Shown piece by piece: positions 37,639-62,890 of a DNA stretch of 64,000 nt. The stretch's first letter is position 1, and each line of letters opens with the position of its first letter. This DNA comes from Phaeocystidibacter marisrubri (GTDB lineage: Bacteria > Bacteroidota > Bacteroidia > Flavobacteriales > Schleiferiaceae): NCBI RefSeq assembly GCF_008933165.1, contig NZ_WBVQ01000003.1, positions 186,001 through 250,000 on the forward strand, read 5' to 3'. The notes below the pieces were generated by a model, which was not told the origin of the DNA, ran no database searches, and saw nothing but the letters and a program-made list of their open reading frames with translations. Position numbers and translations under genes: made by a program.

Positions 37639-38493
37639 ATGAGAAGAGTACTTTCTTTGTTGGTTCTAGCCGGAATGTTGAGTTTCGGTACGGCCAATGC
37701 TCAAGATGAAATGTCATCATCACAAGAGCAAACAGAACAAGCTGACGCATCTATGGCATCTGGGGATAGCTCCTCATCTGCAGAAGCTGCTGAAGCACCT
37801 ATGGAAGAAGCGGCAGCCCCAGCTGAAACTTCTGCCCCAGCTCCTGCACAAGAAGAAGAATACACGCAAGTATTGCGTCGTTACTTCATCGAAGGTGGCG
37901 CTGGCTTTATGGGAATCGTATTGGTAGCCTTGATTCTTGGTCTTGCGATCGTAATCGAGCGTATCCTTTACTTGACATTCTCTATTTCTAACAACGACCG
38001 TCTACTTCGCAAAGTAGAAGAGGCTTTGAACTCAGGTGGTGTTGAAGCAGCTAAAGAAGTTTGCCGTGGCGAACGAGGACCAGTTGCAACCATCTTCTAC
38101 GAAGGTTTGGATCACTACGACGAAGGCATCGAAATGGTTGATAAATCAATCATCTCTGTAGGTTCCGTTGAACAAGGTAAACTCGACAAGGGTGTATCTT
38201 GGATTTCATTGTTTATCGCCTTGGCTCCAATGCTTGGTTTCATGGGTACGGTAATCGGTATGATCCAGGCGTTCGACGCGATTGAAGCAGCGGGTGATAT
38301 CAACCCATCCCTAGTAGCGGGTGGTATTAAGGTGGCACTTTTGACAACCGTATTCGGTTTGATCGTAGCCATCATCCTTCAGATCTTCTACAACTTGATT
38401 GTAGCGATGATCGACAATATCGTTAACAAAATGGAAGACGCTTCCATTTCATTCCTTGATCTTATCATCGAATTCGAAAAGAAAAATAAGTAA
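37639..38493 (+). CDS. exbB: MotA/TolQ/ExbB proton channel family protein, with periplasmic extension
   Basis: A 284-residue subunit of an ExbB/TolQ proton channel that energises outer-membrane processes together with ExbD/TolR. Starting at ATG 37639 there is a signal peptide (about 1-22, ending NAQ), then a low-complexity Ser/Glu/Ala/Pro-rich stretch (about 23-75), and the channel domain with helices near 88-112, 180-205 and 222-250. The conserved GxxMGxxGTV region appears as LAPMLGFMGTVIGMIQAF. The extension resembles the long-form ExbB of some Gram-negatives. It heads a four-gene run with a small membrane protein and two ExbDs. Confidence 0.9.
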   Translation: MRRVLSLLVLAGMLSFGTANAQDEMSSSQEQTEQADASMASGDSSSSAEAAEAPMEEAAAPAETSAPAPAQEEEYTQVLRRYFIEGGAGFMGIVLVALILGLAIVIERILYLTFSISNNDRLLRKVEEALNSGGVEAAKEVCRGERGPVATIFYEGLDHYDEGIEMVDKSIISVGSVEQGKLDKGVSWISLFIALAPMLGFMGTVIGMIQAFDAIEAAGDINPSLVAGGIKVALLTTVFGLIVAIILQIFYNLIVAMIDNIVNKMEDASISFLDLIIEFEKKNK

Positions 38494-53744: not shown

Positions 53745-55046
53745 TTATTTTTTCATCTCTTGTAAGACTCTGTCTGCTGCGTAGAGGGTGTGCTCAAGTT
53801 CACTTTCCCCAATGGTCATGCTGATGAACCAAGTTTCGAAAGCGCTTGGTGGAAGGTAGACTCCTTCGTTCAACATGCCGTGGAAGAACTGCTTGAACTT
53901 GTCGTTATTGCCTTCCATAGCTGAATTAAAATCAACGACATCAGTGTCGCAAAAGTGAATGCTAATCATGCTGCCTAAACGGTTGATTCGATATTCAAAC
54001 CCGTGTTTATCCAGCAATTCTCTCATCCCCGTTTCAATACGCTCGGTCATGTGATCGATCTGAGCGTATGTTTCTGGATGATCCTTCAAATAGTTGAGGG
54101 TAGTCAATCCACTTACTACTGCGAGCGGGTTGCCGCTTAGAGTTCCCGCTTGATAAACGGGACCATTTGGTGCAATATGGTCGAAGATTTCACGCTTTCC
54201 GCCAAAAGCTCCAACAGGCATGCCGCCGCCAATCACTTTGCCGTAGCAAACTAAGTCGGCTTTAACTCCTAAGCGTTCTTGTGCGCCCCCTGGAGCTAAG
54301 CGAAATCCGGTCATTACTTCATCCATGATGAAAACAATACCATGTTCGTCACAAAGGGCGCGAAGGCCTTCCATGTATCCTTCTAGTGGAGGAATACATC
54401 CCATGTTGCCCGCTACGGGTTCAGTGATGATTGCAGCAATTTCACCTGGATTTTCTTCAATCAATTTCTCTACAGCGGCCAAGTTGTTGAATGGTGCAGT
54501 GAGTGTGTCTTGGGCTGTGCCAGAAGTTACACCTGGACTGTTAGGTAGGCCAAGGGTAGAAACGCCAGATCCTGCTTTGATGAGAAAGCTGTCTGCATGA
54601 CCGTGGTAACAGCCTTCAAATTTGATAACCTTATTGCGGCCAGTGTAGCCACGTGCCAAGCGTATCGCGCTCATGCAGGCTTCTGTTCCACTATTTACCA
54701 TGCGCACCATGTCGATGCCCGTCATTTCGCATATGGTTTCCGCAAGTTCAATTTCCAACTCTGTCGGAGCGCCAAAGCTCATGGCTGTTTCTGCTTGCTT
54801 TTGTATCGCAGAAACAACTTCTGGAAAACCGTGTCCTAAGATCATAGGACCCCATGAATTGATGAAGTCAATGTACCTATTTTCGTCTTCGTCAAATAAG
54901 TACGCACCCTCTGCTTTTTTGAAGAAGATTGGGGTTCCTCCTACAGATTTAAATGCGCGGACAGGAGAGTTTACACCGCCTGGAATGTGCTTGTTAGCGC
55001 GTTCAAACAGGGATTCACTTCTCTTTCTTTCAGTAGGATTGATCAT
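53745..55046 (-). CDS. hemL: Glutamate-1-semialdehyde 2,1-aminomutase
   Basis: A 433-residue PLP enzyme making 5-aminolevulinate from glutamate-1-semialdehyde (C5 pathway). The Schiff-base lysine is Lys270 in [14 protein letters not shown], with the PLP-binding Asp242 in [28 protein letters not shown] and YHGHADSFL are typical. Length is standard. It overlaps hemB by four bases and is the last gene of the operon hemA-C-D-E-F-B-L, so the two enzymes of the C5 entry (hemA, hemL) are at its two ends. Confidence 0.96.
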
Positions 55047-56023
55047 AACTTGTATTTTTCAATGAGTCGGGCAACGTCTTTCGCAAAGTAGGTAGCAATA
55101 ATATCTGCACCTGCGCGCTTGAGTCCCAACATAGATTCAATGACAGCTTGTTCTTCGTTTAGCCATCCTCTTTCTGCCGCGGCTTTTATCATGGCGTATT
55201 CACCACTTACGTGATAGGCACTCACGGGCAACAGCAGTTCTTCTTTAAGGGTCTTGATGACATCTAGATAAGAAATGGCGGGTTTCACCATCAGCATATC
55301 AGCGCCCTCTTCCATATCTAAGATAGCCTCTTTCAATCCCTCGCGAATATTTGCAGGGTTCATCTGATAGGTCTTCTTGTCGCCAAAACCTGGTGCGCTG
55401 TCGAGAGCGTCACGGAATGGGCCGTAGAAACAGGATGCGTATTTGGCGCTATAGGCCATGATTCCAGCATTGGTGTATCCGGCTTCTTCAAAAGCGAGTC
55501 GGATTGCCCCAATTCTGCCATCCATCATATCACTTGGAGCTACCCAATCGGCACCAGCCTTGATATGACTTACGGCCATTTGGGCGAGAACTTCTACCGT
55601 AGGATCATTGATGATTTGGCCGTTTTCTACAATGCCGTCGTGGCCGTAGCTGGAGTATGGATCTAAAGCAACATCCGTAAGAACCAGCAATTCTGGATTG
55701 ACGTCCTTCACTGTTCGAATGGCGCGTTGCATTAATCCATTTGGGTTCAAGGCTTCCGTCCCAGCATTGTCTTTGAGGGCGTCTTCCACCTTCACAAAAA
55801 GGAGTACGCTTTTCAAGCCGAGATCTGAAATCTCACGGATTTCATCGACCAACAGATCTAGGCTGTAGCGATAGTACCCAGGCATGGAGGCGATGGGTTC
55901 TTTAATCCCGGTTCCTTCTACAATGAAAAGAGGAACCATGAAGTCTGATACGTGAATTCGTGTCTCTTGAACCAACTCACGTACGGCTCCAGATGCACGA
56001 AGAATTCTAGGACGTACGATCAT
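55043..56023 (-). CDS. hemB: Delta-aminolevulinic acid dehydratase (porphobilinogen synthase)
   Basis: A 326-residue enzyme condensing two aminolevulinate molecules to porphobilinogen. The two active-site lysines are Lys194 ([12 protein letters not shown]) and Lys247 ([10 protein letters not shown]). The metal site reads [14 protein letters not shown] (117-130) with no cysteine triad, as in the magnesium-type enzymes, so it is predicted to be zinc-independent. Length is normal. It starts three bases after the hemF stop and overlaps hemL by four. Confidence 0.95.
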
Positions 56024-56026
56024 AAC

Positions 56027-56932
56027 TTATAGATTTAACCAGTTGCGTGGTTGGAGTGCAGCTACCATTTCTGCCTCGGGTGTGCCGGGCTTAGGGTGGT
56101 AGTCGTATTCCCAACGAGCACGAGCTGGAAGACTCATCAATATACTTTCTGTTCTTCCGTTCGTTTTGAGTCCGAAGGTGGTGCCTCTATCGTGTACCAA
56201 ATTGAACTCAACATAACGGCCTCGGCGGATTTCTTGCCAAAAGGTATTTTCTTCGGAATAGGGCAATTCCATTCGCTTTTCTACAATTGGTAAATAGGCG
56301 TTGAGAAAGGCCTTGCCACAGGCGGAAGCTAAGGAGTAGTAGTCTTCTGCCGAGTGTTTTTCATCCACACGCATATAATCGTAGAAGATACCGCCAATAC
56401 CGCGATTTTCATTCCTATGCGTGTTGACAAAGTAATCGTCACATTGTTGCTTGAAGCGCGGGTAGAAGTTGGCGTCAATGCTATCGCATGCGTCTTTGTG
56501 CATTTGATGAAAGTGAACACAATCATCTTCAAAGAGATAGTAAGGAGTGAGATCAGCACCGCCACCAAACCATGCATCTTTCACGGACCCATCCTCGTTG
56601 TACATCTCAAAATAACGATAGTTGAGATGAACGGTGGGCACCATAGGGTTGACGGGGTGAATCACCAATGAAACTCCAGTGGCATAAAATTCAGCACCTT
56701 CTACACCCAATCTTTTTTGCATGATCTCGGGCAACTCACCATATACTTCAGAGGTGTTGACACCTCCTTTTTCGAACACTTTGCCATCGCGGATAACACG
56801 GGTCCTACCGCCTCCTCCTCCAGGTCGTTCCCAAAGGTCTTCTTCGAATTTTGCACCCCCATCGAGATTCTCGAGGGCGTTGCAAATCTCATCTTGAATA
56901 TCTCTGACAAGTTGTGCGAAACGCTCTTTCAT
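56027..56932 (-). CDS. hemF: Oxygen-dependent coproporphyrinogen III oxidase
   Basis: A 301-residue enzyme that decarboxylates two propionates of coproporphyrinogen III using O2. Recognisable stretches are GGGGGRTRVIRDG, SLVIHPVNPMVPTVHLNYR, WFGGGADLTPYY, YMRVDEKH and EFNLVHDRGTTFGLKTNGRTES. The presence of hemF (and not a HemN-type enzyme here) implies aerobic heme synthesis; the separate HemW at 9 kb is a chaperone, not a substitute. Its end lies three bases before hemB and its start five bases after hemE. Confidence 0.96.
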   Translation of the reverse strand: MKERFAQLVRDIQDEICNALENLDGGAKFEEDLWERPGGGGGRTRVIRDGKVFEKGGVNTSEVYGELPEIMQKRLGVEGAEFYATGVSLVIHPVNPMVPTVHLNYRYFEMYNEDGSVKDAWFGGGADLTPYYLFEDDCVHFHQMHKDACDSIDANFYPRFKQQCDDYFVNTHRNENRGIGGIFYDYMRVDEKHSAEDYYSLASACGKAFLNAYLPIVEKRMELPYSEENTFWQEIRRGRYVEFNLVHDRGTTFGLKTNGRTESILMSLPARARWEYDYHPKPGTPEAEMVAALQPRNWLNL

Positions 56933-56937
56933 CTTGC

Positions 56938-57966
56938 TTACTTCTCGTAATTCTTTACTGCGTTTACAAAGGCTATAGCGTGGTCTACCGGAATGGTAGG
57001 AAGAATACCATGTCCCAAGTTTGCGATGTATCGCTGGGTTCCAAAACCATCAATCATTTCCTTCACCATCTTTTCGATGACAGGGATAGGACTTAGAAGT
57101 CGGCTTGGGTCAAAGTTGCCTTGAAGGGTGATGTTTTCACCCGCAAATTGACGTGCCTGCTGTGGCGTTACGGTCCAGTCTACACCTAGTGCTGATGCGC
57201 CTGTTTTAGCCAAGTCGCCCAGTGCATACCAACAGCCTTTGCCGAAGAGTACGACTGGAACTTCATCTTTCAATGCCTTTGTGATTTTATCGAGGTAAGG
57301 AAGGGAGAATTCCGAGTAATCAGCCTGACCGAGCATACCACCCCAAGAGTCGAAAAGCTGAATCACATCCACACCAGCGCGAATTTTTCCTTTGAGGTAA
57401 GCGATGGTCGCATCTGTAATGGCATCGAGAAGTTTATGTGCTAAATCAGGACGATGGAAGCAGAAACTCTTGGCCGTTGAAAATTCTTTCGAACCTTGTC
57501 CTTCTACCATGTAACAAAGGATGGTCCATGGAGATCCTGCAAAACCAATGAGCGGAACGCGGTTGTTCAGCGCTTGTTTGGTTAGCTTGATGGCTTCATA
57601 AACATAACCCAAGCTCTCTTCAACGTCTGGCTTTACGAGACGAAGAAAGTCTTTTTCTTCGCGAATAGGATTGGGAAGGTAGGGCCCTTTGCCTGGGATC
57701 ATCTGAACTTCGATGCCCATGGCCTGAGGAATTACCAAGATGTCAGAGAAGAGAATCGCCGCATCTACACCTACCTGATCTACGGGTTGAAGGGTGATTT
57801 CGGTGGCCATTTCTGGGTTCCCAATTCGTTCAAAGAATGGATATTTCTCTTTCAACTTCATAAAGTCTGGCAAGTATCTACCAGCTTGACGCATCATCCA
57901 TACAGGTGGACGAGAAAGTTCCTCTCCGCGCAATGCACGAAGCAAAAGATCATTTTGAAGAGCCAT
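56938..57966 (-). CDS. hemE: Uroporphyrinogen decarboxylase
   Basis: A 342-residue enzyme removing four carboxyls from uroporphyrinogen III. The N-terminal signature is [17 protein letters not shown] (residues about 20-36), with further [16 protein letters not shown] and DSWGGMLG (substrate-binding Asp/Ser/Gly) and [13 protein letters not shown]. Length is normal. It overlaps hemD by 17 bases. Confidence 0.96.
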
Positions 57967-58636
57967 GAGCTTTTAATTCTAAATAGTGTTGTGTCAATAA
58001 GAGTACATCGGGTGTTTCTGGTACAACCAATGGAGTGATGCCTTGTTTTATCAATGCTTCGGCTGTGGTTGGGCCAATCGCTAGTGCGTCGGTGCCCGAT
58101 GTTGGCCATTCGTTGTGACGAAGGACGGAGGTTACATTGCGCGGACTAAAAAAGCAGACCGCGTCAAAGTTGTTGAAATTCACATGTGGGTGAGTGGCCT
58201 GTGTCCAGTACGTTTCTATGGTTTCGAAATCCCAGTCATTGGACGAGAGGTAATTCTCAACTGCTGGAGTCCGGTCTTTTCCACATAAGTACTGTGCACT
58301 GCCCGATTCTGGAAGCTTGCTCACCAAGTCTTTTCCATGGTTCGCTTTGATCGTTGTTGTGATACCGAATTCGGCAATCTTTTCTTGAGATCGAAAGCCA
58401 ACCGTTGCCCATTTAGAGTTCTTACCCCATCCTTGTTCAAGCAGGATACGAATGCTTTCGAGTGCATTTGGACTGGTCACGATAATCCACTCTTTGGGTT
58501 CTGGAAGTTCACTGATGGGAAGTAGTACGGGCTCAAGAGCTTTCACTTCTGTTACTTCTACCATCTGTTCCAGCAAAGCCTTGCGGTGTTCACTTAGGGG
58601 CTTTGTAAAGAGAATACGTTGTTGATTGGCGCTCAT
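57950..58636 (-). CDS. hemD: Uroporphyrinogen-III synthase
   Basis: A 228-residue enzyme closing and rearranging hydroxymethylbilane. Sequence conservation in this family is low; visible are [60 protein letters not shown] and [16 protein letters not shown], the usual order of substrate-cleft segments. The ATG at 58636 overlaps the hemC stop by four bases; the longer frame extends into hemC and is rejected. The call relies as much on the operon position between hemC and hemE. Confidence 0.88.
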
Positions 58637-59547
58637 TTCAATGTGCTTAGAATGGCATCTCCGCCATTTTGCTTTGCACGCAGAGCGAATTTTTCGCCGA
58701 GCGTTGGCCAATCTTCAAGATTAGCAGAGTCTTCCACCTTCACTTCAGATTTGCCATCTAAGGAGTGAAGGGTTCCAACAAAGAATATTTTTTGTCCTGA
58801 TACTCGCGCAAGTGCTCCAATCGGAGCTGAACATCCTCCTTCTAAGGTGCGAAGGAACTGTCGTTCTACGGTGCTTGTAATTCGGGAGAGTTCTACGTCG
58901 AGAAGTTTACAAGCATCGAGTGCAATTACATCGCCTTCTCTGTGAGTAATTCCCACTACGCCCTGTGCGGGTGCTGGAATCATCCAATCCAATGCCACAG
59001 CATTTTCTGGAACTAACTCCATTCTTCGCAATCCCGCAGATGCCATAATTATCCCACTCCAATTGCTTTCTTTGAGTTTGATCAAACGCGTTTGTACGTT
59101 TCCTCTCAAATTCTCCGTGGTGTGGTTTGGAAAGTGATGTAGCCATTGCGCTACTCTGCGAATGCTCCCAGTGCCGATGGTAGAAACACTTTCTCTGTCA
59201 TTCAAAAAAGAAGTGTCGCCTTTTGGAATGAAGAGATCCATGGGGTCTTCTCTTTCTAAATGTGCCGAAAGCACAATGCCCGCAGGTGGCTGAGTAGGGT
59301 AGTCCTTAAGCGAGTGAACGGCGATGTCAATTTCATTATTGAAAAGGGCATCGTCTAAAACTTTCGTAAAAACGCCTGTAGTGCCTAGCTCGTGAAGCGG
59401 GCGGGTGGTATCAATATCGCCTTGTGACTTCACAGGGATAATTTCGACCTCTATATTTTGAACACGAAGAAGACGAGCTACGGTGTGTGCTTGCCACATG
59501 GCAAGCTTGCTGTCTCTTGTGCCAATCCGAATTGGGGAGTTGCTCAT
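58633..59547 (-). CDS. hemC: Hydroxymethylbilane synthase (porphobilinogen deaminase)
   Basis: A 304-residue enzyme polymerising four porphobilinogens. The dipyrromethane cofactor attaches to Cys239 in LEGGCSAPIGA; DLFIPKG, TIGTGSIRR and NVQTRLIKL, APAQGVVGI are typical, as is the N-terminal RIGTRDSKLAMWQA. Length is standard. Overlaps hemA and hemD by four bases on either side. Confidence 0.96.
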   Translation of the reverse strand: MSNSPIRIGTRDSKLAMWQAHTVARLLRVQNIEVEIIPVKSQGDIDTTRPLHELGTTGVFTKVLDDALFNNEIDIAVHSLKDYPTQPPAGIVLSAHLEREDPMDLFIPKGDTSFLNDRESVSTIGTGSIRRVAQWLHHFPNHTTENLRGNVQTRLIKLKESNWSGIIMASAGLRRMELVPENAVALDWMIPAPAQGVVGITHREGDVIALDACKLLDVELSRITSTVERQFLRTLEGGCSAPIGALARVSGQKIFFVGTLHSLDGKSEVKVEDSANLEDWPTLGEKFALRAKQNGGDAILSTLK

Positions 59548-60755
59548 TTTGAACTTGTTACCGACAACCTCGAAGATAAGTCGGTTCGAATGAATTCTAC
59601 GCTTTGTCCTCTACGAATGTGGTAGCAGAAGTAACGTTGCATTTTTTGTTTGAGGAATGCCTCTTCAGAAGTGGGCATCATAGCGGTTTCATAGGCTTCC
59701 GACACCAGGTCGAGAAGTTCAGTTCCCTTAGAAAGGATGAAATCGATGGCGGTTTCAATTTGTGGAGCGTGTCCACGCATGGTGTGCCAATCCATTAATT
59801 CGTCAATTTCTTCAGCAACTATGGCTTCCACAGCAGGAAGTTCATCCAATCGTTTCTGAAGTGCATTGCGCGTCATCTGTGATAGCTCATCCACATCTAG
59901 AAGACGAAGCTGAGGTAAATCTCCAACTTCAGTGGCTACGTTCGAAGGAACAGCCATGTCAATCACTGTGGTGAGCTTAGGACGGTCGAGTTCGTTTACG
60001 GTAAGAATCGGTCGATCTGCACCTGTCGCCACAATCAAGATGTCGGTTTGGTCGATGGCAGATTGTAGGCTCTCGTGTGGACAGTAGACGGCGCCAGACT
60101 CGTTAGCGTATTTTTCCGCTTTTTCGTCCGAACGGTTCACCAAGGTGATGTTTTTTGGAGCAGTAAGGCCCAAGAGGTGATCAAGTGTAATTCGACCAAA
60201 TTTACCCAAGCCATAAAGCGTGATTTTTACATCCGACAAATCTTCGAATTCATCCTTCAAATAACGCGCAGCAGCGTAGGAAACAGAAGTTGCTCCAGTG
60301 GAGTAGCCTGTTTCAGATTTCACGCGCTTGCTAGCATGGATAACGTGATTGATGATTTTTTCGAGGTAACCATTTACGGCATTTGCCTTGTGAGCCCAAC
60401 GGAAGCCTTTGCGAACCTGCATTATGATTTCAAAATCACCCGGGATTTGACTTTCCATCCCCACACTTACTTTGAAGAGATGTGAAAGTGCATCCATCCC
60501 TCGAAGCGAGTACCCTAAATCCGCAAACTCTTCGGCATTGCCATTGGTGTGATCTAGATAAAGGGCGAGAACAGACTCCGGTTGATGAGTCAGGCCGATG
60601 ATTTCTGTGCGGTTGCAGGTAGAAATGATGAAGCCTTTGAAATCGGTTTGTTCAGTGAGTTCGGACAACAAGGAGGCTTGCTCTACCTCACTCAAGCTGT
60701 AGGCTTGACGTTGGTGAACGTTGGCTGTCCGGTAACTTACACCGAACACGGTCAT
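59544..60755 (-). CDS. hemA: Glutamyl-tRNA reductase
   Basis: A 403-residue NADPH-dependent enzyme reducing glutamyl-tRNA to glutamate-1-semialdehyde, the committed step of the C5 pathway. The catalytic Cys47 is in FIISTCNRTE; VSVGMESQIPGDFEI has Pro where ILG is usual (QIL), a small oddity; the NADPH domain has LYGLGKFGRITLDHL. ATG at 60755 is used; the ten-codon extension starts at TTG. It is the first gene of the seven-gene heme operon, with a leader of about 54 bases and a TATTTTTG box at 60809-60816. Confidence 0.95.
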   Translation of the reverse strand: MTVFGVSYRTANVHQRQAYSLSEVEQASLLSELTEQTDFKGFIISTCNRTEIIGLTHQPESVLALYLDHTNGNAEEFADLGYSLRGMDALSHLFKVSVGMESQIPGDFEIIMQVRKGFRWAHKANAVNGYLEKIINHVIHASKRVKSETGYSTGATSVSYAAARYLKDEFEDLSDVKITLYGLGKFGRITLDHLLGLTAPKNITLVNRSDEKAEKYANESGAVYCPHESLQSAIDQTDILIVATGADRPILTVNELDRPKLTTVIDMAVPSNVATEVGDLPQLRLLDVDELSQMTRNALQKRLDELPAVEAIVAEEIDELMDWHTMRGHAPQIETAIDFILSKGTELLDLVSEAYETAMMPTSEEAFLKQKMQRYFCYHIRRGQSVEFIRTDLSSRLSVTSSK

Positions 60756-60808
60756 TTCCTCAAAATGGTCTGTGGTCCTTTTCAAACTAAGTTCTTTCTG
60801 AACGGTGA

Positions 60809-60816
60809 CAAAAATA
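60809..60816 (-). promoter_or_regulatory. Probable -7 promoter box of the hemACDEFBL operon
   Basis: TATTTTTG on the minus strand matches TAnnTTTG exactly; the hemA ATG is 53 bases downstream. The palindromic operator candidate at 60883-60901 lies 67 bases upstream of the box, so it could act on this promoter only at a distance. Confidence 0.55.
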
Positions 60817-60882
60817 CCTATGAGAGTAATTGGAAAATACCTCTAGAAGTAAAATAAATACCCTCATAGAATGATGTGATTA

Positions 60883-60901
60883 ATTTAGAATCGTTCTAAA
60901 T
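60883..60901. promoter_or_regulatory. Palindromic operator candidate between the divergent heme operons
   Basis: ATTTAGAATCGTTCTAAAT is a perfect inverted repeat with 8-base arms and a 3-base spacer, lying in the 213-base region between hemA and the araC gene. Its right half falls on the expected -33 position of the araC promoter (box at 60913-60920). The dyad pattern TTAGAAnnnTTCTAA is like sites of Fur-superfamily iron/heme regulators (Irr, PerR types); that comparison is from memory, not a search. Confidence 0.65.
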
Positions 60902-60912
60902 CTTCCGTGAGG

Positions 60913-60920
60913 TAATTTTG
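60913..60920 (+). promoter_or_regulatory. Probable -7 promoter box of araC-hemH
   Basis: TAATTTTG, an exact TAnnTTTG match, 48 bases before the araC ATG. No TTTG at the -33 spacing; the palindrome covers that position. Confidence 0.6.
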
Positions 60921-60968
60921 CTCAATGCCTTGAATAGTCGAGGTTTTGAGTTGAAAATACCGCTGATT

Positions 60969-61877
60969 ATGAAAGTAGGTGCCACTGAATTCAAAAGTAC
61001 GGAGGATCCAGAAAATATCGCTGAACGAAGTAGAGAACTCATTCGCGTATCGGAGGGGATAACCTTGGTGAAGATTGAGAATGACGGGAGTGAACCCTTT
61101 GTGATTCAGAGGGATATGCCCAAAAGTGTCATTCAATTCTATTTTGCATTGGAGGGTCAAAGTACGTTCAAGTTTGGTCCTACATATCAACTACAACTCC
61201 AAGAGGGGAAGAACTTTTTCTTCTACAATCCGGAGAAGGAATTGCCAGTGAATATCACTGTTAACCCGGGCGCAAAGCACGTGTTCCTCTTCCTTACGAT
61301 AGATCGTGTGCATGAGTTGTTTGTGGAAGACGCCGCAGAGCTACCTTTTTTGTCGAGCGAGAATATCAATCGCAAGTTTTACGACGAAAGGCAGATTGCA
61401 TCTCAAACCATAGTGGTTCTAAATCAGTTGTTTAACACACATCTGTCTCCGCAAGCTCAAAAACTTTTCTACAAGGGGAAAGTGTATGAACTTTTGAGTT
61501 TTTACTTCAGTGCCCGAGAAGTAGATACGGTGAGCTGTCCTTTTTTGAATGATGAGGACAATGTTCGCAAGATCAAATTGGCAAAAGAGTTCTTGATGAA
61601 GAACATGGCCAATCCACCGAGCATTAAAGACCTTGCTAGAGAAGTGGGCTTGAATGAGTACCGACTCAAGGTGGGCTTCAAGGAAGTGTATGGAAATACG
61701 GTATATGGTTACTTGCTCGATCACAAGATGGATCATTCGAGATCTCTCTTAGATTCGGGAAAATACAAAGTGAATGAAGTGGCGTATGCCTTGGGGTACA
61801 CCAACCCGAGCCATTTCATCACCGCTTTTAAAAAGAAATTTGGCATAACACCTAAAAAATACTTGTCTAACGAATGA
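60969..61877 (+). CDS. AraC family transcriptional regulator
   Basis: A 302-residue regulator with an N-terminal ligand/dimerisation region (1-190, no recognised motif) and a C-terminal AraC double helix-turn-helix (about 200-300): SIKDLAREVGLNEYRLKVGFKEVYGNTVYGYLLDHKMDHSRSLL and YKVNEVAYALGYTNPSHFITAFKKKFGITPKKYL. The ATG at 60969 is preferred to the TTG at 60918. Its stop overlaps the ferrochelatase start by four bases, so it is co-translated with hemH. That position suggests heme- or porphyrin-related control (inference); some bacteria use similar regulators for siderophores. Confidence 0.9.
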   Translation: MKVGATEFKSTEDPENIAERSRELIRVSEGITLVKIENDGSEPFVIQRDMPKSVIQFYFALEGQSTFKFGPTYQLQLQEGKNFFFYNPEKELPVNITVNPGAKHVFLFLTIDRVHELFVEDAAELPFLSSENINRKFYDERQIASQTIVVLNQLFNTHLSPQAQKLFYKGKVYELLSFYFSAREVDTVSCPFLNDEDNVRKIKLAKEFLMKNMANPPSIKDLAREVGLNEYRLKVGFKEVYGNTVYGYLLDHKMDHSRSLLDSGKYKVNEVAYALGYTNPSHFITAFKKKFGITPKKYLSNE

Positions 61878-62890
61878 AGACAGCAGCCTTACTCGTAAAC
61901 CTAGGATCTCCGGATTCTACGGAAGTGAAAGACGTAAAGAAGTATTTGGATGAATTCCTGATGGATAAACGCGTGATCGATTATCCATTCTTGTTCCGAG
62001 CGCTATTGGTTCGAGGCATCATCTTGAACACACGTCCAAAGAAATCGGCGGAAGCGTATAAGTCCATTTGGTGGGATGAAGGTTCGCCTTTAATTGTATT
62101 GACGAAGCGCCTTCAAAAGAAGGTGCAGAATGGGACTTCATTACCCGTGGAAATTGCCATGCGTTACGGGAATCCATCCATTGCTTCTTCCTTAAAGAAG
62201 TTGATGGAGAGAAATAGTGACTTGAAGAAGGTGTATGTTTTGCCGCTGTACCCGCACTACGCCATGTCGAGTTTTGAAACGGTGGTTGAAAAGGTTAAGG
62301 AGGAAGCAGCTGTGATTTGTCCAGGTGTTGAGCTGGATTTTCAAGATCCTTTTTACAACGATGAAGACTATATCAATATCCTAGCGGAGTCTATTCGTCC
62401 ATCATTGCAGGAGCCTTTCAACAAGGTGCTATTCAGTTACCACGGGGTTCCTGAGCGTCACATTTTAAAGGGGGATGTGACGGGCTGTCATTGCTTGAAG
62501 ACAGAGAATTGTTGCAGTACACCTTCGCCTGCTCATGCGCAGTGTTATCGTCACCAGTGTTTTGAAACTACACGTTTGGTGGCTGAGAAACTCGGACTCA
62601 CAACGGATCAGTACAGTGTGAGTTTTCAGAGTAGACTGGGCAGAGACCCATGGCTCACACCGTTTACGGATGCAACGCTGGAAGAGTATGGCAAATCTGG
62701 AATGGAGAAACTCATTGTGGTTTGCCCAGCGTTTGTGTCTGATTGCCTTGAGACGCTAGAAGAAATTCAGGTAGAAGGGGCCGAAGAGTTCATTGCTGCA
62801 GGAGGGAAATCAATCGATGTTGTCGACTGTTTGAACGATCGCGATGATTGGTCGGCCTTGCTGAGCAAGTGGATTGAGGAACGCGCCTAA
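61874..62890 (+). CDS. hemH: Ferrochelatase
   Basis: A 338-residue enzyme that inserts ferrous iron into protoporphyrin IX. Catalytic His190 is in FSYHGVPERH; LVNLGSPDSTEVKDV opens the sequence, and FVSDCLETLEEI carries the acidic pair (Glu near 293). A cluster of six cysteines (205, 207, 213, 214, 224 and 229) lies in GCHCLKTENCC ... CYRHQCF, reminiscent of internal Fe-S-binding ferrochelatases. It is coupled to araC and ends in a strong bidirectional terminator. Confidence 0.94.
   Translation: MKTAALLVNLGSPDSTEVKDVKKYLDEFLMDKRVIDYPFLFRALLVRGIILNTRPKKSAEAYKSIWWDEGSPLIVLTKRLQKKVQNGTSLPVEIAMRYGNPSIASSLKKLMERNSDLKKVYVLPLYPHYAMSSFETVVEKVKEEAAVICPGVELDFQDPFYNDEDYINILAESIRPSLQEPFNKVLFSYHGVPERHILKGDVTGCHCLKTENCCSTPSPAHAQCYRHQCFETTRLVAEKLGLTTDQYSVSFQSRLGRDPWLTPFTDATLEEYGKSGMEKLIVVCPAFVSDCLETLEEIQVEGAEEFIAAGGKSIDVVDCLNDRDDWSALLSKWIEERA

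Follow-up and report, generated by a model that had tools for sequence, protein, structure and literature searches.

In the E. coli araC–araBAD system, araC is transcribed divergently from its target operon, AraC half-sites lie 21 bp apart by the target −35 element, a CRP site is located between the two promoters, and a further AraC site lies near or in araC itself. Within the order Flavobacteriales, the R. anatipestifer Fur box ATTTAGAATTATTCTAAAT was predicted from promoters under Fur control and is backed by gel shifts with four promoters; the published sites lie within 100 bp of the start codon of mostly uptake and other genes, the site table lists neither hemA nor nqr nor sdh, and there is no description of phased upstream sites (PMC5609570). 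In alphaproteobacteria, Irr and its iron control element represent a Fur-family regulator of heme synthesis and of iron-using genes (PMC11442138, citing Rudolph et al. 2006), and regulators such as Irr are known to bind heme through a Cys-Pro motif (PMC11442138). PgFur from Porphyromonas gingivalis is a Bacteroidota Fur that fails to bind the E. coli Fur box and belongs to a separate Fur subfamily; the passages concerned describe neither a matching palindrome nor a heme-synthesis regulon (PMC6613475).

The locus studied here lies in the window, by which we mean the whole 64-kb stretch of DNA analysed. With araC–araBAD it shares the divergent araC, half-sites 21 bp apart, a putative site of a second global regulator between the promoters and a site near or inside araC; it differs in that the target is a heme operon and the second regulator would be Fur instead of CRP. 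On the minus strand, hemA, encoding glutamyl-tRNA reductase (59544..60785; TIGR01035 above cut-off; listed from TTG, the start likely being further in), is followed by hemC, hemD, hemE, hemF and hemB (55043..59547). On the plus strand, the gene for an araC-family regulator with an invariant CPFL linker (Cys190-Pro191) (60969..61877; HTH_18 and HTH_AraC above cut-off) precedes hemH, encoding ferrochelatase (61874..62890; TIGR00109 above cut-off). Between the divergent genes, ATTTAGAATCGTTCTAAAT forms a perfect 8-3-8 dyad at 60883..60901 (no strand assigned) with a 7-1-7 core, TTAGAAT-C-GTTCTAA, exactly where the sequence-only reading had located a palindrome in the heme control region. We predicted −7 boxes by matches to the flavobacterial consensus TAnnTTTG (PMC9723704), and these do not represent mapped starts. 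The hemA box TATTTTTG (60809..60816, minus strand; CAAAAATA when read on the plus strand) is separated by 67 nt from the dyad's 17-base core, the distance given earlier, and the araC-hemH box TAATTTTG (60913..60920, plus strand) lies 12 nt past the core, with the dyad centred at about −33 of this promoter, in keeping with the earlier reading, which had put the right arm on this element.

By itself, the dyad is weak evidence and mildly improbable only, because about one perfect 8-3-8 dyad is expected per 64 kb (0–3 in first-order Markov sequences of window composition), the window has three, and sequences modelled on the hemA–araC intergenic stretch contain one in 0.5% of cases (P ~0.005), or a perfect dyad with any loop of 0–6 nt in 2.4%. 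The other two lie at 38430 and 40048, and the palindrome, described earlier as the only perfect long dyad noticed in a control region, is so for the 8-3-8 form in the hemA–araC control region but not in the window. We take conservation, assessed with controls, as the evidence that decides against chance. HemA was searched in 60 related genomes and 30 hemA loci were read: the pattern TTTAGAA-N3-TTCTAAA occurs with at most two mismatches in 19 of the 30 upstream regions; first-order Markov sequences built on these regions average 0.46 matches (of 30) and reach at most 3. A search with an alignment of the AraC N-domain yielded 80 named loci (selected on CPFL), including Phaeocystidibacter luteus. 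Divergent hemA is present at 67 of them, and the box was found within two mismatches at 64 and within three at 66 of these 67, F. johnsoniae included. The dyad is conserved in the hemA–araC region of relatives, a check that the sequence-only reading had proposed, and its position between divergent hemA and araC-hemH promoters is likewise borne out. No HemA was matched in 25 of the 60 relatives of the HemA search, among them G006, G007, G012, G013 and G026, and heme auxotrophy may be common in the window's family. G012 and G013, where no HemA was found, still keep the box at actA.

The best intergenic sites in the source genome are those at hemA/araC-hemH, nqrA (G000:C1:522626, L057), actA of alternative complex III (G000:C1:114683, L056), sdhC (G000:C2:823940, L064), an HmuY-domain gene (G000:C1:1624891, L058) and a DUF4856 gene (G000:C2:833630, L065). 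The genome scan suggested earlier did yield further copies at iron and heme-protein genes. Within two mismatches, the box lies upstream of orthologs in relatives at actA in 29/30, at nqrA in 14/30 and at sdhC in 15/30, against random maxima of 3–4; at nqrA and sdhC it is missing or weak in about half of the relatives. Control patterns (the reversed pattern, six permuted palindromes, and loops of 1, 2, 4 or 5) gave 0–3 of 30. Box-bearing actA genes include that of F. johnsoniae. Since counts across the source genome at three mismatches showed no excess over the reversed control, we used only sites with at most two mismatches and comparative support; near matches in coding sequence (L059–L063, L068) were dropped. 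Cytophagales show no convincing actA box, and the regulon is therefore claimed for Flavobacteriales only. In the actA upstream regions (L160–L189), the two arms differ consistently: the promoter-distal one is nearly fixed as TTTAGA, and the proximal one mostly reads TATAAA or TTTAAA. The distribution of sites suggests one conserved heme-and-respiration regulon, comprising heme synthesis, Nqr, succinate dehydrogenase (SDH) and alternative complex III, by which iron supply would probably set heme synthesis and respiration jointly. In E. anophelis, transcripts for complex III and SDH rise with iron (PMC7221216). In R. anatipestifer, low iron reduces the transcripts of SDH and complex III whether or not fur is present (PMC5609570), and this fur-independent fall argues against Fur as the sole activator in that organism.

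The window box and the R. anatipestifer Fur box are identical in 17 of 19 bases, with both 8-base arms exact; the likeness extends to the same 19-bp palindrome with the same arms in the same order of bacteria. The source genome holds two Fur-family genes only, for a 157-aa Fur encoded beside purA (PF01475 at 99.9 bits) and for one Zur-like protein, and in several genomes with an actA box the sole Fur-family gene is of the 157-aa Fur type. The recognition helix of this Fur reads ATLYNTIEL in most of 25 relatives, with YN(T/N) conserved; SRATLYNTIELL is nearly invariant among them (L052 reads ATIYNNLEVL), and an N stands where Fur of Campylobacter and Magnetospirillum has R. Most of these Fur proteins (L019, L190–L209) lack the second structural-zinc CxxC cysteine and keep HDH and the other metal-site histidines. 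With curated NCBIfam models, the Fur of the source genome scored 38.9 and 38.1 bits for Irr (cut-offs 150 and 170) and at best 59.6 bits for PerR (cut-off 180). It contains no CP at all, and in contrast to Irr it is without the heme-binding GCPWH motif; a Cys-Pro is found in the neighbouring AraC instead. The earlier assignment to Fur-superfamily (Irr/PerR) sites survives as to type, the best match being the flavobacterial Fur box, but not as to Irr or PerR. The link to peroxide also raised there gained no support, no peroxide gene having been found among the box sites examined. The protein that binds here is likely to be the 157-aa Fur rather than an Irr or a PerR, and we consider it highly probable that the palindrome is a site of flavobacterial Fur, with a predicted dimer on TTAGAATCGTTCTAA. 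We infer from these comparisons that Fur would bind in its iron-loaded form.

A separate family of direct repeats, AAAATA(A/C/T)C(C/G)C, is present on the plus strand at 60834 and 60855 next to the hemA −33 element, at 60954 at the araC start codon and at 61012 inside araC. The two upstream copies, AAAATACCTCTAGAAGTA (60834..60851) and TAAATACCCTCATAGAAT (60855..60872), are 21 nt apart; their tandem half-sites, counted from TACC to TACC (60838, 60859), are spaced by the same 21 nt, or two helical turns, and recur in relatives. The copy over the araC start codon, AAAATACCGCTGATTATGAAAGTA (60954..60977), has the same place in Flavobacterium, the intragenic copy is AAAATATCGCTGAACGAAGTA (61012..61032), and a repeat-like copy overlapping the hemA −7 box, AAAAATACCTATGAGAGTA (60810..60828, plus strand), may be promoter only. 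This layout recurs in relatives with araC (L021–L043, L253–L319) and was not seen in relatives without araC. Using a matrix built from noncoding copies of other loci, we compared the araC 5′ coding region to its synonymous recodings and obtained p=0.002 at the window locus and p<0.06 in 16/18 loci (mean z 2.4), loci that are related, so that the combined value is not independent. Because the coding region outscores its recodings, it appears to be under selection at the DNA level. The protein scores 73.2 bits for PF12833 and 54.5 bits for PF00165 in its HTH domain. Its AlphaFold model has pLDDT <50 for most of residues 1–16, and Foldseek on this model returned generic AraC-family matches with a whole-chain TM of ~0.3, which is uninformative on the ligand. 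CPFL (residues 190–193, in the linker before the HTH) is present in 11/11 hem-linked AraC orthologs and in 0/5 paralogs with an aligned linker, a count that leaves out the 80-locus search, itself selected on CPFL. By analogy, we tentatively propose that the hem-linked AraC senses heme via Cys-Pro; that it activates hemA is rather more credible than otherwise. An ortholog with CPFL kept (L220, G012:C3:22669-23532) occurs in a genome in which the HemA search gave no match. Cytophagales hold close relatives of the hem-linked AraC (L241–L251) with no hemA in the flanks examined, and a palindrome, GTTAGAATGATTCTAAG, lies ~200 nt upstream of one of them (L242).

These observations bear on what the palindrome could be other than a Fur site. 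A dyad arisen by chance, or one forming an RNA hairpin without a bound protein, would agree with the background of about one per 64 kb; sequence and position are, however, kept across dozens of genomes and four operons, by which the chance reading is practically refuted, and the hairpin was discarded since in this lineage the dyad comes before the predicted araC start site and would not be part of the araC RNA. We give these readings virtually no weight. The palindrome adjoins araC and sits among AraC-type repeats, as an operator of the adjacent AraC protein might, yet copies of the palindrome are found at nqrA, sdhC and actA, and also in genomes without hemA (for example at actA of G012 and G013), and AraC proteins usually read direct repeats, a role that the separate repeat family fits, which renders this reading very unlikely. 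Somewhat less remote, though still improbable, is that in this lineage the box is read by another regulator with the same motif, be it Irr-like, PerR-like or an unrelated dimeric protein. The functions concerned, heme and respiration, resemble those of Irr, and the palindrome resembles the alphaproteobacterial Irr iron control element. In Bizionia, the different, non-Fur iron regulator MliR also affects complex III (PMC9478572). Against this stand the small complement of Fur-family genes, one of the two being Zur-like, the Irr and PerR scores far below cut-off, and the binding of a flavobacterial Fur to fragments carrying the motif (PMC5609570). The site is real and conserved, and it is best read as a flavobacterial Fur box, so predicted, in a composite Fur/AraC control region.

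How Fur would act from this box can be approached by the gap that separates the box from the closest TAnnTTTG downstream of it. Gaps are mostly 35 nt at nqrA and sdhC, 45–48 nt at actA and 56–58 nt in a few lineages; at hemA, the gap is 67 nt in the window, 67–69 nt in most relatives of its family and 130–133 nt in Flavobacteriaceae. They cluster around whole-turn classes (R=0.77 for the set of distinct operon–gap pairs; as high in 0/5000 random sets), with a p-value that is nominal because the random-gap null ignores relatedness, the classes were set once the data had been seen and a few hemA loci with gaps of 104–107 were omitted. Moving the box by 4–25 nt abolishes the whole-turn relation. 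On the araC-hemH side, the 12-nt gap centres the box on −33; gaps of 11–13 nt are found in many relatives but not in Flavobacterium, where the box lies between TAAATTTG and the araC start codon, so that this geometry is lineage-specific. The HmuY gene has a gap of 12 nt to a near-consensus −7 box, as at araC, and the box of the DUF4856 gene follows closely on TACTTTTG, where transcription is expected to start. Sites exchanged by whole turns are characteristic of activators that contact RNA polymerase, and the whole-turn distances at hemA, nqrA, sdhC and actA suggest activation, while the 12-nt gap on −33 at araC-hemH and the HmuY gene suggests repression; in each case we infer the direction of Fur action from promoter geometry. 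Fur elsewhere is mainly a repressor, and it could be only that here as well, shutting araC-hemH in iron excess and reaching hemA indirectly via AraC levels. The box centred on the araC −33 element in this lineage and the equal gap at the HmuY gene would suit such a role, but the boxes of nqrA, sdhC and actA are found far upstream of the −33 element, at fixed distances of whole turns, where a simple repressor would be poorly placed, and the hemA gap keeps the register too, at 67–69 or 130–133 nt. We regard a purely repressive Fur as a possibility to be taken seriously, although not the probable case. The bound repressor envisaged in the sequence-only reading, for the araC-hemH side and possibly for the whole pathway, agrees with the box on the −33 element of araC-hemH and is probably incomplete because of the activator-like, whole-turn upstream boxes and the AraC repeats as sites of a second regulator.

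In the mechanism we propose, an iron-loaded Fur dimer would occupy the palindrome between hemA and araC-hemH. On the araC-hemH side, bound Fur should block the promoter, since the box covers −33. On the hemA side, bound Fur would help to activate hemA jointly with AraC at the 21-nt repeats between box and promoter, because the 67-nt gap puts the box in the same helical register as the sites of nqrA and sdhC at 35 nt and of actA at 46 nt; a contribution of Fur to hemA activation is nearly an even matter in our judgement, leaning slightly against. AraC probably also regulates its own expression through the repeats at and within araC, and its Cys-Pro may allow it to report heme. As a whole, we consider it probable that the palindrome is a Fur site in a conserved heme-and-respiration regulon, with composite Fur/AraC control at hemA–araC. 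More speculatively, and on balance unlikely in this full form, iron-loaded Fur in Flavobacteriales would directly activate Nqr, SDH, complex III and heme synthesis from phased sites (35, 46, 57 or 67 nt from −7) and repress uptake genes from core-promoter sites, and at the heme locus it would partner a heme-sensing AraC with an intragenic operator, in parallel to CRP and AraC at araBAD.

How Bacteroidota adjust heme synthesis seems little described; in a search of mostly open-access literature, no paper turned up that describes this hem-linked AraC or a Fur regulon with these members. The laboratory species F. johnsoniae carries the box at both hemA and actA. If it is true, one type of site ties iron supply to heme synthesis and to three respiratory complexes, and the position of the box predicts whether Fur activates or represses. 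This could explain the rise of flavobacterial respiratory genes with iron.
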